DNA of 64,000 nt, from positions 1 to 64,000 of the forward strand of contig NZ_FNCA01000009.1 of NCBI RefSeq assembly GCF_900100715.1, written 5' to 3'. The translations under genes and the position numbers were made by a program. The notes beneath the pieces are model-generated. The model did no database searches and was not told the DNA's origin. It worked only from the letters and a program-made list of their open reading frames with translations. Position 1 is the stretch's first letter. Each line of letters starts with the position of its first letter. Shown piece after piece: positions 53,561 through 58,381 of this stretch. The DNA is from Methanolobus vulcani (GTDB taxonomy: Archaea > Halobacteriota > Methanosarcinia > Methanosarcinales > Methanosarcinaceae).

Positions 53561-54271
53561 GTGAGTATTCAGGAAGAATTGAACAGAATTGCACTGGAAA
53601 ACGGAGTCCAGTATTTTGGTGTGGCAGATCTTTCAAATGCTACTGATTTCATTGTTGATCAAGGTGGTAAGAACCTGTCAGAGTATCCGTATGCTATCTC
53701 AGTCGGAATAAGAATGATGGATTCTATTGTTAACAAACTGACACATAGAAATGAGAGAGCAGCATTATTGAATTACAAGCATCATGCGTACGATGTTATC
53801 AACTCAAGACTTGACATGATAACTTCAATCCTGAGCAGCCATATTCAGGATAATGGCTATGCAGCACTTCCTATTCCTTCATCAAAAAGAATAGATGATG
53901 AAAGGATCTGTGCCCAGTTCTCCCACAAACTGGCCGCCCACCTGTCAGGACTTGGCTGGATAGGAAAAAGCTGCCTCCTGATAACCCCGGACAACGGACC
54001 AAGGGTCAGATGGGCTACAATCCTGACAGATGCACCCCTCCAAGCTACGGGAACCAGTATGGAAAGCAGATGTGGAAACTGTAATGAATGTGTGAAGATA
54101 TGTCCGGTCCAGGCTTTTACCGGAAGGAATTTTGTTGAAGGAGAAAACCGGGAAATGAGATATGATGCTAAGAAATGTGATGACCATTTCAAGGAAATGG
54201 AGAACAATGGGCAGCTAGCTGTGTGTGGATTGTGTGTTTATGTGTGTCCTCATGGGAGAAAAAAGAACTAA
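53561..54271 (+). CDS. QueG-like 4Fe-4S protein
   Basis: 236 residues from GTG 53561, with GAGGT upstream. A QueG-type N-terminal corrinoid/substrate domain (GLGWIGKSCLLITP), then a double-cluster region with CGNCNECVKICP and CGLCVYVCP. Related to epoxyqueuosine reductase and to archaeal Fe-S proteins of unknown role. Archaea make archaeosine and not queuosine, so QueG chemistry itself is unlikely (inference). Confidence 0.85.
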   Translation: MSIQEELNRIALENGVQYFGVADLSNATDFIVDQGGKNLSEYPYAISVGIRMMDSIVNKLTHRNERAALLNYKHHAYDVINSRLDMITSILSSHIQDNGYAALPIPSSKRIDDERICAQFSHKLAAHLSGLGWIGKSCLLITPDNGPRVRWATILTDAPLQATGTSMESRCGNCNECVKICPVQAFTGRNFVEGENREMRYDAKKCDDHFKEMENNGQLAVCGLCVYVCPHGRKKN

Positions 54272-54619
54272 GATATTTTCTACAAAAAAGTGTAGTAATA
54301 TGAAATGAATTAATAAAGTAATTTATCTTTGAAGCCACTCTAAATTCAGAATAAATAGATGCGCAAGTAAATTGCTGAGAAAAAAGAGATAAATTAGCTA
54401 AAATAATACTCATCTAAAGTATAAATGCCATATAAACAAACTTAAAATTAAGCAGAAAATAAATTTTAACTAGCGGAGTGAAAGTATTAAAAACGGAGAT
54501 AATAAATACAATTAACTTAAATTGTTACATAGATAGGATTTAAGTATAAAAATATAAACTAATTTATTTATAGTTTTATTATCAAAAATGATGTCCTATT
54601 AAAATAGAGGAGATGAAGA
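54272..54619. other. AT-rich gene-free stretch before the HD cassette
   Basis: 348 bases without a gene and markedly more AT-rich than the coding DNA to the left. CTACA/TGTAG (54280-54295) is a small hairpin just after the preceding stop. The right part (54540-54600) is promoter-like, with TTTATTTATAGTTTT. The base composition change marks the left edge of the cassette. Confidence 0.5.
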
Positions 54620-55102
54620 ATGGCAAATGAAAAAATATTGAGCAAAGTTTTAGACATTATTGGACTGGGGAAACCAGATATGTCGGATTTTGACAATAGG
54701 CTTCAATATCAAAAAGTTATTTATTTGCTTCAAGCTTCTGGCTTATCACTAGGTTATGGATATAATTGGTACCTAAAAGGACCATATTCATCTCCATTAG
54801 CACACACCTTATTTGCAATTGATGACAATACATTTGAAAGTAGCAAAGGCTTGGTATTTAAAAACAACGAAGTTATTGAGGAGAAGCTTGAAGCTTTCAA
54901 AAAGAAGTTGGGTGAAGATATTAAAGACGTCAACTACTTAGAAATATTGGCATCCTTACATTACATTAATAAAGCAAATTTTGCTGGAAATGGAAAAGGA
55001 AAGGAACTTACCGAGAAATTATTTCAAGTTAAGCCTTACTTAAAAGAAGCTGACCCAATTCTTATTGAAAAAGCATTAAATAATTTGAAAGATTACAATT
55101 AG
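54620..55102 (+). CDS. YwgA/Panacea-like protein (possible antitoxin or regulator)
   Basis: 160 residues with a strong GAGGAGATG ribosome site. The LQYQKVIYLLQASG...LGYGYNWYLKGPYSSPLAHTL block resembles the YwgA family and, more loosely, the DUF4065/SocA Panacea antitoxin domain (LQKLLYY...YGPV). Five bases separate it from the HD gene, so they form one unit. YwgA and HD-protein YwfO are also close neighbours in Bacillus as I recall it, which supports a functional pair. TTA/ATA-rich codons differ from nearby genes and suggest transfer. Confidence 0.65.
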   Translation: MANEKILSKVLDIIGLGKPDMSDFDNRLQYQKVIYLLQASGLSLGYGYNWYLKGPYSSPLAHTLFAIDDNTFESSKGLVFKNNEVIEEKLEAFKKKLGEDIKDVNYLEILASLHYINKANFAGNGKGKELTEKLFQVKPYLKEADPILIEKALNNLKDYN

Positions 55103-55107
55103 AATTA

Positions 55108-56616
55108 ATGACGCCTGATGACATTGACTTTAGAAGGGAAATTTATGACAATGTCCATGGGTTTATAAAAATTACAGAATTAGAGAATAAAGTCATTGAT
55201 TCACCTTTTTTTCAACGTTTACGTAACATTAGGCAATTGGGATTATTAGATTATGTTTTCCCTGGTGCTTTACATAATAGATTTAATCATTCAATTGGTG
55301 TCATGCACGTAGCTGACAAAATGATTGTAAGCCTTCAAGAAAAAAATAAAGTATTTTCTGGCCAACGCAAATTGATTAGAATGGCTGCACTCTTGCATGA
55401 TATAGGTCATTATCCATTGTCGCATCTTATAGAAAGTGAAGTCAAAAGTGACACTAAATCAAAATACAAACCACGAGATATTTCAATTGAAATTGACAAC
55501 GGTATTGAAGATAATTCTTTATCGGAACAGAGTTTAGAAAATAAAGTTCATAACTTAAACTATGAACTACATCCCAGTAGAAATGATTCACTTGACTTTG
55601 CTCATCATGAAAGAATTACTGGAATCGTTATTCATTGCACCGAGATATATGATATTCTTAAAGAGGAATTTGATGATAACGAAATACGAGCTATATGTCA
55701 AATTATAGCTGGAACTTATTCCGGTCCAGAATCACTTATAATTCACTCTGAATTAGACGCCGATAGATTTGACTACTTATTGCGTGATTCAAACCATACA
55801 GGCGTTAAATATGGATTATTTGATTCAGAACAAATAATAAGAAACTTAGACTATGATGAAGAAGATAATCTTTTAGTTGTAAACGAAAAAGGACAAAAAG
55901 CCGTTGAGCATTATTTATTATCAAAATACTTTTTTTATAGCACTGTTATTTTTCATAAAGCAACTGTCGGTTTCGAATTAATGGTAAAAAAAGCATACAA
56001 AGGATTACTTGAAAGAGGGCATGCTGTTTCATACCTTGACCTAATTAATATGTTCCAAGATGAAAGTTCTACATCTACTATAAATTATCTTGATTTTACG
56101 GATTCATGGTTTTTCAACACTTTAAAAGATATAGAAAAACAGAAATTGGATTATGATAAAAATAAAGATTACGAAATTCAAGAAGATGTTTTTCTCATAT
56201 TTGTTAGTAATATCTTAAATAGAGTACCGTTAACGTTAGCACATGAAGAACAAAAAATGGTGAGAAAGGGAGAAAATTTTACTCCCCGCTTTGTTGATGA
56301 TATTATCCAAAACCATATAATTGAAAAGACAGGAATTGAAGAGAGATGGTATATTCCTTTTGAGATACCAATTTCAATAACTAATGTTGAACCTTATAAA
56401 AGTTTACGTGATAGTTGGTATTCTTCTGAAGATAAAGAAGAGACAATTAAAATTAAGAAAAAACATGAAAATGGATATAAATATCTGATTGAAGATGAAG
56501 CTTCAATTATTCATGTGTTAAGTGAACAAAAATTAAAGATATGCAGAGTGTATACAAAAAATAAAGAATATGCAGCAAAAATAAGTGAAATTCTCGACAA
56601 AAAACCTTGCAGCTGA
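55108..56616 (+). CDS. SAMHD1/dGTPase-like HD-domain phosphohydrolase
   Basis: 502 residues. Motifs of the family in order: FFQRLRNIRQLG (about 35), FNHSIGVMHVADKM (His61), LLHDIGHYPLSH (His97, Asp98), FAHHERITG (166-172) and ELDADRFDYLLRDSNHTG (215-232). These metal ligands hydrolyse dNTPs to nucleosides and triphosphate in SAMHD1 and dGTPases. A long Lys/Glu-rich C-terminal part is without a recognised domain. It is AT-rich, with TTA-heavy codon use unlike flanking genes. dNTP depletion is a known antiviral strategy of such enzymes, so a defence role is plausible but unproven. Confidence 0.9.
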   Translation: MTPDDIDFRREIYDNVHGFIKITELENKVIDSPFFQRLRNIRQLGLLDYVFPGALHNRFNHSIGVMHVADKMIVSLQEKNKVFSGQRKLIRMAALLHDIGHYPLSHLIESEVKSDTKSKYKPRDISIEIDNGIEDNSLSEQSLENKVHNLNYELHPSRNDSLDFAHHERITGIVIHCTEIYDILKEEFDDNEIRAICQIIAGTYSGPESLIIHSELDADRFDYLLRDSNHTGVKYGLFDSEQIIRNLDYDEEDNLLVVNEKGQKAVEHYLLSKYFFYSTVIFHKATVGFELMVKKAYKGLLERGHAVSYLDLINMFQDESSTSTINYLDFTDSWFFNTLKDIEKQKLDYDKNKDYEIQEDVFLIFVSNILNRVPLTLAHEEQKMVRKGENFTPRFVDDIIQNHIIEKTGIEERWYIPFEIPISITNVEPYKSLRDSWYSSEDKEETIKIKKKHENGYKYLIEDEASIIHVLSEQKLKICRVYTKNKEYAAKISEILDKKPCS

Positions 56617-56988
56617 TATTCTTTTAATTGTAAAATAAATTATTTACAACTTCATCATCATCCCATACCCATAATCTCCAGATGGCTTTATGAAAATATA
56701 CACTCAGCCGTACGCAAAGAGAAATAAAAATTGTCTCTGTAGAAATCTTTGAAATTCATATTCACGGAACTACAATTATCTATATTGGTGTACGAACAGA
56801 TACTTGTTTAACTCGCCAATATTGATCTCATCAGAATTTCTACAGAGGCGAGTAGTTACATGTTAGTTTTTGATTAAAGAGAATAAAGCGCTTTCCCTTG
56901 TTAATTTTTAGTAACCTGCATTTTAATTAGATTCTAAAGGTTAGATGAATATTAAAACCAGATAGATAATAGACACTCAAACTTCCAA
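56617..56988. other. Gene-free AT-rich region downstream of HD cassette
   Basis: 372 bases without a gene, closing the AT-rich cassette on the right. Its main content is the long inverted repeat listed separately (56735-56847). The rest shows nothing I can name. The convergent ABC permease gene ends at 56989. Confidence 0.5.
56735..56847. repeat. Long inverted-repeat element (possible MITE or RNA hairpin)
   Basis: A perfect 12-bp inverted repeat, CTCTGTAGAAAT (56735-56746) and ATTTCTACAGAG (56836-56847), encloses a second one, ATATTGG (56782-56788) and CCAATAT (56816-56822), and a third, AACA/TGTT, at the centre. The layout over 113 bases suits a miniature inverted-repeat element or a structured transcript end. 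No transposase gene and no obvious target-site duplication are seen. Confidence 0.6.
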
Positions 56989-58371
56989 TTAATCCCACTT
57001 AACAAAACTCCTTTTCAACACAAACAAGGACACAGGTATCAGCAACACCGACAAAAGCACCAGATGGAAGTGTAGCTGAGCAAGGAAAATCATTCCCATA
57101 ACCACAGGACCGATAGCCAGCACATAGCTTGCAAATGTACCGGCGTTATATAGTGAAAATGTTGTGTTAAGACCGGTCAGGTAAACAGTCACCGAAACAA
57201 CATACATTGAAACTGCAACGAACAGCAGGATGATGTGAACAATATCGATCAATCTGCCCGCATAGATGGTAGCTGCCACAACCACCAGAAAAGGAAACAC
57301 ATTCAGCAGTGAATAACTGTTGAGCTTGCTTCTAAGAACATCAGCAACCGTTAGAGGAAGGAAAGAGTACGAGCTGAACATGTCAAACTCAACCAGCCAG
57401 TTGTACATGGAAGACGCCATCATGCCTACAACCACTGTAAAAACCACAAGTGTGTCCAGCCCTGGTACAGCTTTAAGCAACTGAGGCAGGAACAGCCATA
57501 CAAGCAAAACAGGCACAAGGAATGAGAATACTATTTTTCCGGCACCTCCTTCACTGCGGCTGAAATCAAGATAATCCTTTGTCATAAAATGAGAGTAACC
57601 ATAGAAATCCAGTTTGTCAGAAATTTCACTGAACCTGTTCCTGTAATGTTTCTGAGATTGCGGATAATCCACTTTCAGGAAAATCAGTGATATTATAGAT
57701 GGTACTAGAACAAGAACAATACAGGTAATCAGAACTTTCAGGGAAGGCTCAGTATATAGAACAAAGGAAGGAAGCCTGTAGAATACATCAAACTCGAGTC
57801 CCTGGAAGAAAATCAGGAACAATACTGGAATCAATAGTAGCAGGAAAAGAGCCTTCTTGCCAAGATTAGCATAGATTGTGGATAGTAAGAATACAAACGA
57901 TAGACCGATGCAGAATGAAAAGAACAGTGTCAACAGCAATAGGAAGAATGAATAATGCATGTCAATTATGATGGCTCCTGCCACAAATCCCACTGTGAAC
58001 GGCAGCACATACAAGAAGAAATAATAGATAACATCCTTGACAATGAAATTAGCAAAAATGGTTCTCTCAGATATCGGAAGTGTCCTTGAAGAATAGGCTA
58101 GCAGACTTGCCTGTCCGAATCTCCTGTTCATAACTTCCCTGCCTAGCAGACCGAAACCTCCAACCATTGAACCCATGAAAAGCAACAGGTAATGTATTCC
58201 CAGCAGCACATCGGTCTGGCTAATTATCCTCCAGAATATTATCATGGAAAGTGAGAGTAACATGGAAGCGGCTGCAATCACAGCCGGAAATAGGGCAAAG
58301 CCTCTATCCCCGAAGAATGCGGAATGCATCCTCCATTCTTCCTTCATCATGCTCCTGAACAGCTCGAACAT
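56989..58371 (-). CDS. ABC transporter permease
   Basis: 460 residues from ATG 58371, with GAGGTG upstream, 10 bases after the ATPase stop. About ten to twelve transmembrane helices in two sets, no large outside domain; ABC-2-like. An amphipathic start (MFELFRSMMKEEWRMHSAFFG) precedes the first helix. Forms an export-type transporter with the ATPase gene; the cargo is unknown. Confidence 0.85.
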   Translation of the reverse strand: MFELFRSMMKEEWRMHSAFFGDRGFALFPAVIAAASMLLSLSMIIFWRIISQTDVLLGIHYLLLFMGSMVGGFGLLGREVMNRRFGQASLLAYSSRTLPISERTIFANFIVKDVIYYFFLYVLPFTVGFVAGAIIIDMHYSFFLLLLTLFFSFCIGLSFVFLLSTIYANLGKKALFLLLLIPVLFLIFFQGLEFDVFYRLPSFVLYTEPSLKVLITCIVLVLVPSIISLIFLKVDYPQSQKHYRNRFSEISDKLDFYGYSHFMTKDYLDFSRSEGGAGKIVFSFLVPVLLVWLFLPQLLKAVPGLDTLVVFTVVVGMMASSMYNWLVEFDMFSSYSFLPLTVADVLRSKLNSYSLLNVFPFLVVVAATIYAGRLIDIVHIILLFVAVSMYVVSVTVYLTGLNTTFSLYNAGTFASYVLAIGPVVMGMIFLAQLHFHLVLLSVLLIPVSLFVLKRSFVKWD

Positions 58372-58381
58372 TACCGGCACC

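Follow-up and report, generated by a model that had tools for sequence, protein, structure and literature searches.

A mobile AT-rich gene pair of Methanolobus vulcani couples a DarG-domain-like protein with a SAMHD1-like HD enzyme: a proposed dNTP-depleting toxin-antitoxin module

What could two closely spaced genes, far richer in AT than the chromosome around them, be doing in a methanogenic archaeon? The question arises from a 64,000-nucleotide stretch of Methanolobus vulcani DNA (hereafter the window), in which a first-pass annotation had pointed out a cassette coding for a "YwgA/Panacea-like" protein and a SAMHD1-like HD phosphohydrolase, and had suggested a toxin-antitoxin or abortive-infection module. 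The features of the locus are as follows.

53561..54271, + strand: Fe-S protein gene on the left flank; the AT-rich segment starts directly past its stop
54272..56658, no strand: AT-rich segment of 2,387 bp, missing at the orthologous site of a genus-mate (G005)
54607..54616, + strand: gaggagatga, a Shine-Dalgarno-like stretch ahead of the small gene, read from the sequence
54620..55102, + strand: small gene, 160 aa, predicted stand-alone fold of the DarG C-terminal domain; proposed neutraliser or regulator
55108..56616, + strand: HD gene, 502 aa, predicted EF1143/SAMHD1-like dNTP triphosphohydrolase; proposed effector
56989..58380, - strand: gene for a 463-aa protein without a Pfam match on the right flank, adjoining an ABC ATPase gene

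The open reading frame coordinates place the two genes 5 bases apart on the same strand, as the annotation had described. A strong Shine-Dalgarno-like stretch precedes the small gene, but none can be made out clearly ahead of the HD gene, which suggests that translation of the HD gene is coupled to that of the small gene. The GC content of the segment is 0.289, against a window mean of 0.409 (sd 0.027). The 2,387-bp stretch with the minimum GC in the whole 64 kb begins at 54259, within 13 bases of the segment, and the next minimum among non-overlapping stretches of the same length is 0.357. The flanking non-coding DNA is AT-rich as claimed, with a GC of 0.22 in the left gap and 0.30 in the right gap, and from 56659 onward the right gap is host DNA common to a relative. 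Two inverted-repeat-like stretches, ctctgtagaaat and atttctacagag, were read by eye in the right flank (56733-56850). The pair had also been described as rich in TTA and ATA codons when compared with its neighbours, and here the TTA part stands: TTA accounts for 9/23 leucines in the small gene and 24/45 in the HD gene, and the corresponding values for five of the neighbours are 5/74, 3/13, 1/19, 2/77 and 0/31. The ATA part does not, since the shares of isoleucines (2/11 in the small gene and 18/52 in the HD gene) are similar in the neighbours.

Is the segment an insertion? Orthologues of the flanking genes adjoin each other in 6 of the 27 genus genomes, the window genome included. They lie 348 bp apart in G005, where the alignment spans both flanks and the 2,387 bp of the window correspond to 11 bp; the segment is an insertion in the window genome, or a loss in the others. 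The orthologous site holds an AAA_14/DUF4143 ATPase gene in G007 (L177:1818-3350), two short ORFs in G023 and about 3 kb of other ORFs in G001. Because these three differ, the site accepts varied cargo, and it may be an accessory-gene hot spot. At this site in genus-mates, two short ORFs span L176:2076-2590, and several ORFs, including one for a TPR-like protein, span L178:886-3710. A transposon was considered and dropped, as neither terminal repeats nor a target duplication is obvious at the segment ends. At the BLAST level the small gene occurs in 1 of the 27 genus genomes and in 4 of 60 relatives. HD-superfamily genes occur in 58 of these 60, mostly in other branches than the HD protein of the window. 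Broad vertical inheritance with a housekeeping function, which the annotation had named as the opposite case, is thus not what the window pair displays; as a counterpoint, related HD-then-YwgA pairs lie in ordinary chromosomal-type contexts in Bacillales. The GC of the pair was also below that of its flanks in 8/8 other pair loci measured. The pair is a horizontally mobile two-gene module.

The identification of the second gene product as a SAMHD1-like HD phosphohydrolase was borne out by its sequence relatives and by structure matching. Both HD (PF01966) and HD_assoc_2 (PF19276) score above their Pfam cut-offs, and among solved structures 2hek, 2q14 and EF1143 (2o6i) come closest in sequence, followed by SAMHD1. 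The structure model, with a pLDDT of 75.5 and poor loops and part of the C-terminus, matches EF1143 with dGTP (4lrl) with a Z of 32.6 over 397 residues, at 24-25% sequence identity, and SAMHD1 with a Z of 28.8. The HD motifs had been called complete, and indeed H61, H97-D98, H106, H167-E168, D217 and D219 are found in the window protein and in all 8 other pairs aligned. The main positions in the window are listed below.

55288..55290, + strand: H61, metal ligand (alignment and sequence comparison), which we take to be the equivalent of SAMHD1 H167
55396..55401, + strand: H97-D98, the HD motif (alignment)
55606..55611, + strand: H167-E168, catalytic HE dyad (alignment), presumably the equivalent of SAMHD1 H233-E234
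55756..55764, + strand: D217-A-D219 of the LDADR motif, metal ligand region (alignment)

Three more residues, D31, Q36 and R39, are putative activator-site residues, placed by alignment at the activator site of SAMHD1. All three are in the window protein, and they are kept in 7/9, 9/9 and 8/9 pairs, respectively. Their presence suggests that the HD protein may be activated by nucleotides.

For the small protein, a Pfam scan returned no family, and the closest named relative is one that the annotation did not mention, the C-terminal domain of DarG. The PADLOC DarG model matches it at 7.5e-9 over DarG positions 180-326 of 329, the NCBIfam DarG model at 6.6e-6 in the C-terminal region only and far under that model's whole-protein cut-off, and 13 of the 14 members of the small-protein family match DarG. 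An AlphaFold (AF2) model built from the 14 family members has a pLDDT of 93.1 and a pTM of 0.89. When it was compared with the PDB by Foldseek, chain B/D of 7yk3 (DarTG complex, M. tuberculosis) was returned with a probability of 1.00 and a weak E-value of 0.057; VIA-align gave a Z of 12.3 and an rmsd of 2.9 over 148 residues, against a Z of 4.8 for the runner-up, and 7yk3 is the only good PDB structure match. From its length and the entry title, this chain would be the DarG C-terminal domain. Searched by sequence, the PDB yielded no useful match to the small-protein family (a match at 0.003 is a designed scaffold). A comparison with the viral structure library gave no convincing match.

The "Panacea-like" label, on the other hand, holds at a distance only, through YwgA-type proteins, and not as a direct Pfam match. 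(The name YwgA is applied here to a protein that the Priestia record labels hypothetical.) Pfam Panacea (SocA/DUF4065, PF13274) matches neither the window protein nor any of the 14 family members. In profile comparisons, in which E-values and probabilities refer to single comparisons and not to a library search, the window family matches the YwgA type at 98.5%, or 99.2% once viral members are added, and the YwgA type matches Panacea at 97.0%. The window family against Panacea directly gives 63% over 47 columns, and a control against the HD family profile gives 0.1%. HD-linked YwgA-type proteins (e.g. L155 and L157) exceed the Pfam Panacea cut-off and match the DarG model as well. Because the profile comparisons chain them, the window family, the YwgA type and Panacea are likely to be one superfamily, in which the small protein is closest to the DarG domain. 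We also observed that 600-aa HD proteins of relatives (L186-L188, L003, L004 and L028) have a weak YwgA-type match in their C-terminal ~100 residues (best E 1.8e-6 at a set size of 5000; profile comparison 93.5% over 74 columns). These long proteins are possibly natural fusions of the HD enzyme with the small-protein domain; with so weak a match, the fusion was rejected as a firm reading.

The partners of the small-protein family give a further indication of its role. A genome scan for the family returned 13 loci, and a phylum scan matched 71 of 392 genomes at 81 places, 24 weak ones of which were left out of the locus examination. The 72 loci examined include repeats (L144 = L058, L145 = L059) and near-copies (L121-L123), all counted, and members of this same set supplied the MAZF, PIN and unknown-class models. 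A PIN-domain gene is the neighbour at 22/72 loci (21 convergent, 1 on the same strand), and a MazF/PemK-type gene at 20/72, on the same strand and with a winged-helix gene ahead of the small gene. HD neighbours were found at 12/72 loci, 9 in the order small-then-HD and 3 in the order HD-then-small. Eight of the remaining loci fall into three further partner classes and 10 outside any class, although within these 10 a PemK match occurs in L052 and a weak match to PIN in L056. When samples were scanned with Pfam, PemK was recovered in 4/4 and PIN in 3/4 at E<=0.01, with one of the three PIN matches falling narrowly below the cut-off. One viral locus has the small gene, a HicB-like gene and a HicA gene in a row. 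Since the family adjoins PIN and MazF-type toxin genes, an inhibitor role is expected of it. Within the further classes, a 129-130-aa protein encoded directly after the small gene (L090, L091, L092 and L141; L091 was scanned and has no Pfam family) is a candidate toxin. A 331-342-aa partner overlaps the small gene in L142 and L143 and has a weak restriction-enzyme-like match, while a 426-434-aa partner lies on the opposite strand in L116 and L132.

The two-gene cassette proved to be real, and archaea, bacteria and phage contigs all show the order small-then-HD on one strand, so that the description "archaeal system" was too narrow. Among archaea it is found in the window, two Methanoperedens (L047 and L048), Methanoregula (L049) and Methanomicrobiales (L050), and among bacteria in the alphaproteobacterium Erythrobacter (L053) and a clostridium (L055). 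Further cases are G396 (L089), G245 (L111, with the HD gene broken by a stop), G056 (L146, with the HD gene truncated close to the end of its contig) and two phage contigs that share one identical locus (L172 = L173). The broken HD genes beside an intact small gene (L111 and L146) were discarded as a hint of toxicity, because L146 lies at a contig end and the loci are biased by the search through the small protein. In the phylogenetic tree, the pair HD proteins from ten loci form one clade with support 98/93 (L146 and the duplicate L173 being left out), and the 400-aa HD proteins of the genus itself form a separate clade (100/99). The window HD protein groups with Methanoperedens, away from the housekeeping HD proteins of the genus; the placement of L053 and L172 is unsure because their branches are long. 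Identities of the small and HD proteins covary across nine pairs (r 0.918, equalled by 2 of 10,000 permutations), but shared descent alone can yield such covariation, and joint inheritance rather than contact is shown by it. Starting from the HD side, a type-A HD (over 300 bits) was found in 3 of the 392 phylum genomes, with the small gene adjoining in 3/3; the small protein had served to find most type-A loci, and the pairing at those is therefore partly by selection. From the coordinates, a same-strand HD gene lies within about 1.1 kb at 14 of the 81 phylum places, where less than one is expected by chance (a rough value, for ~3 HD genes per ~2,000 genes). HD and small-superfamily genes adjoin above chance.

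Viral genomes were covered in several ways. Single-sequence scans with the window proteins found nothing, whereas alignment queries did find viral relatives. By tblastn, neither phage nor plasmid records contained a match to the window small protein; plasmid records gave none for the small proteins of Erythrobacter and Clostridia, and phage records none for the one of Clostridia. Among 20 viral loci with HD relatives, 7 have a same-strand small-superfamily neighbour and 13 have none. Two of the seven are small-then-HD (one locus on two contigs), and five are HD-then-small, of which one is beside a terminase gene, one follows an integrase gene and another precedes a gene with a weak tail-protein match. 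As for cellular surroundings, type III methyltransferase genes come next in L048, and a retron/DRT-type reverse transcriptase gene and a SIR2-like gene are near L050; no defence neighbour is evident at L047 and L049 in the stretch examined. A ribonucleotide reductase (RNR) small-subunit gene lies directly upstream in L053 (by Pfam), preceded by a large-subunit gene called by eye, and a thymidylate synthase gene lies upstream in L172. Two other arrangements were observed. An 806-829-aa HD protein follows a 135-141-aa protein in two distant bacteria (L043:1915-4786 and L044:1965-4864), which is a possible further HD-plus-partner pair; the two small proteins share 40.7% identity and, considered as relatives of the window small protein, turned out to be unrelated. 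A cassette recurs on plasmids of Sinorhizobium and Labrenzia (L039 and L042): its genes code for a radical SAM protein, a 3'-5' exonuclease, an AAA ATPase and an HD enzyme, and it has the look of a further mobile system.

What, then, does the pair do? The depletion of dNTPs is an anti-viral weapon common to animals and bacteria. We put it at slightly better than an even chance that the pair is a mobile dNTP-depleting effector which the small protein restrains by binding to it directly, much as in type II toxin-antitoxin or abortive-infection systems. The HD protein, hydrolysing dNTPs like EF1143/SAMHD1, would be the effector, and the small protein, made from the first gene, would bind it, by analogy with DarG on DarT, and hold it inactive in healthy cells. 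Virus infection would break or override this hold; by analogy with Clover, the released enzyme would then drain dNTPs and viral replication would stop. We infer the binding, inhibition rather than activation, toxicity, the anti-viral role, the trigger and the dNTPase activity. The toxin-antitoxin or abortive-infection idea of the annotation, still putative, gained support from the mobility, the toxin partners of the small family and phage carriage.

A wider proposal is held more tentatively, at somewhat under an even chance: the DarG C-terminal domain, YwgA and Panacea would form one neutraliser superfamily, one branch of which restrains SAMHD1-like dNTPases, and the pair would be a new dNTP-depleting toxin-antitoxin or abortive-infection kind in archaea, bacteria and phages, with a protein, not a nucleotide signal (Clover), holding the dNTPase off, possibly by covering its nucleic-acid or activator site. 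If it is true, the widespread and unexplained pairs of HD-YwgA type gain a testable function via the DarG-YwgA-Panacea link. The likely restraint of a putative dNTP-depleting enzyme by a protein is directly testable here, with many natural pairs to choose from.

Several observations weigh against the restrained-effector reading. Nucleotides regulate the EF1143/SAMHD1 enzymes, for which an antitoxin may be superfluous; D31, Q36 and R39 are kept; and 13/20 viral HD loci have no partner. The strongest doubt on defence comes from Priestia, where the same superfamily pairs with an HD gene in reverse order among metabolic genes (L035, the YwfO-YwgA pair of Bacillales). Because this related pair looks housekeeping, the window pair may tune dNTP pools and not defend. 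The main rival is accordingly a transferred housekeeping pair of this kind, its HD enzyme trimming dNTP pools and its small protein tuning the enzyme, which we regard as unlikely, though a serious contender. Besides L035, HD-then-small pairs occur at L138, L147, L155 and L157, and 10 of 16 DarG C-terminal-type matches in the 60 relatives (18 less 2 macrodomain matches) adjoin an HD gene, as read from coordinates. The YwgA-like tail of the 600-aa HD proteins would also fit, but it matches the YwgA profile only and not the window family. A housekeeping role also sits poorly with a small gene confined to a single genus genome, a segment foreign in composition and missing at a relative's site, and relatives whose neighbours on phage contigs are terminase and integrase genes.

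The same gene and mobility evidence would also suit a module for defence whose small protein activates the HD enzyme or senses infection for it, and according to PMC10440598 more study is needed of what a Panacea domain does in its own antitoxins. We consider this improbable, as the small protein is structurally closest to a domain with an inhibitory action on its partner (PMC11481870 and PMC12170906) and the family adjoins toxin genes, where an inhibitor is expected. Cleavage of another nucleotide or signal is very improbable: HD enzymes are chemically diverse (PMC8177086) and identity to EF1143 is low, but the fold and all catalytic positions fit the dNTP triphosphohydrolase branch over 397 residues, and genes of deoxynucleotide synthesis lie next to the pairs of L053 and L172.

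In comparison with known systems, the restrained-effector module is of a known kind, that is, toxin-antitoxin or defence with a dNTPase, and the combination was not found in the open-licence literature, where our searches returned no paper on the small and HD pair. DarG binds DarT directly and antagonises it (PMC11481870, PMC12170906), and according to one of these its C-terminal domain does so via ssDNA mimicry; mimicry judged by overall charge is unsupported for the small protein, whose net charge is -1. The small protein shares the fold, as predicted, and the profile match of the DarT-binding domain. It is ruled out as a DarG itself, for its 160 aa lack the N-terminal macrodomain and its gene adjoins no DarT, the neighbours being the HD, Fe-S protein and 463-aa protein genes. 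The Panacea antitoxins are distant kin that likewise have many toxin partners and an antitoxin-like position, but the window family, unlike them, has no Pfam match. The YwfO-YwgA pair of Bacillales also sets a SAMHD1-like HD enzyme beside a protein of the same superfamily; its HD gene comes first, belongs to another HD clade and has metabolic surroundings, the reverse of the window order. With the dNTP triphosphohydrolases EF1143 and SAMHD1, the HD protein shares the fold over ~400 residues and the catalytic residues; it differs in its partner gene and in its low identity to EF1143, and its activity is predicted. In Clover, according to PMC12265719, the dNTPase CloA is toxic without its partner CloB, which holds it back. 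The likeness is one of layout: each module sets an HD enzyme, known or predicted to be a dNTPase, beside a gene whose product is proposed to restrain it. PDB entry 9mr6, taken up as CloA, was rejected, as structure comparison shows a fungal SAMHD1. CloB is a polymerase-beta-type nucleotidyltransferase, whereas the window partner has the DarG-domain fold and matches the DarG C-terminal region only; with no nucleotidyltransferase partner, the pair is not Clover. As a putative anti-phage defence system, the pair is patchy and mobile in its distribution, with defence genes near L048 and L050 and none evident at L047 and L049. The layout is that of type II toxin-antitoxin systems, a tight two-gene operon with the antitoxin-like gene first.
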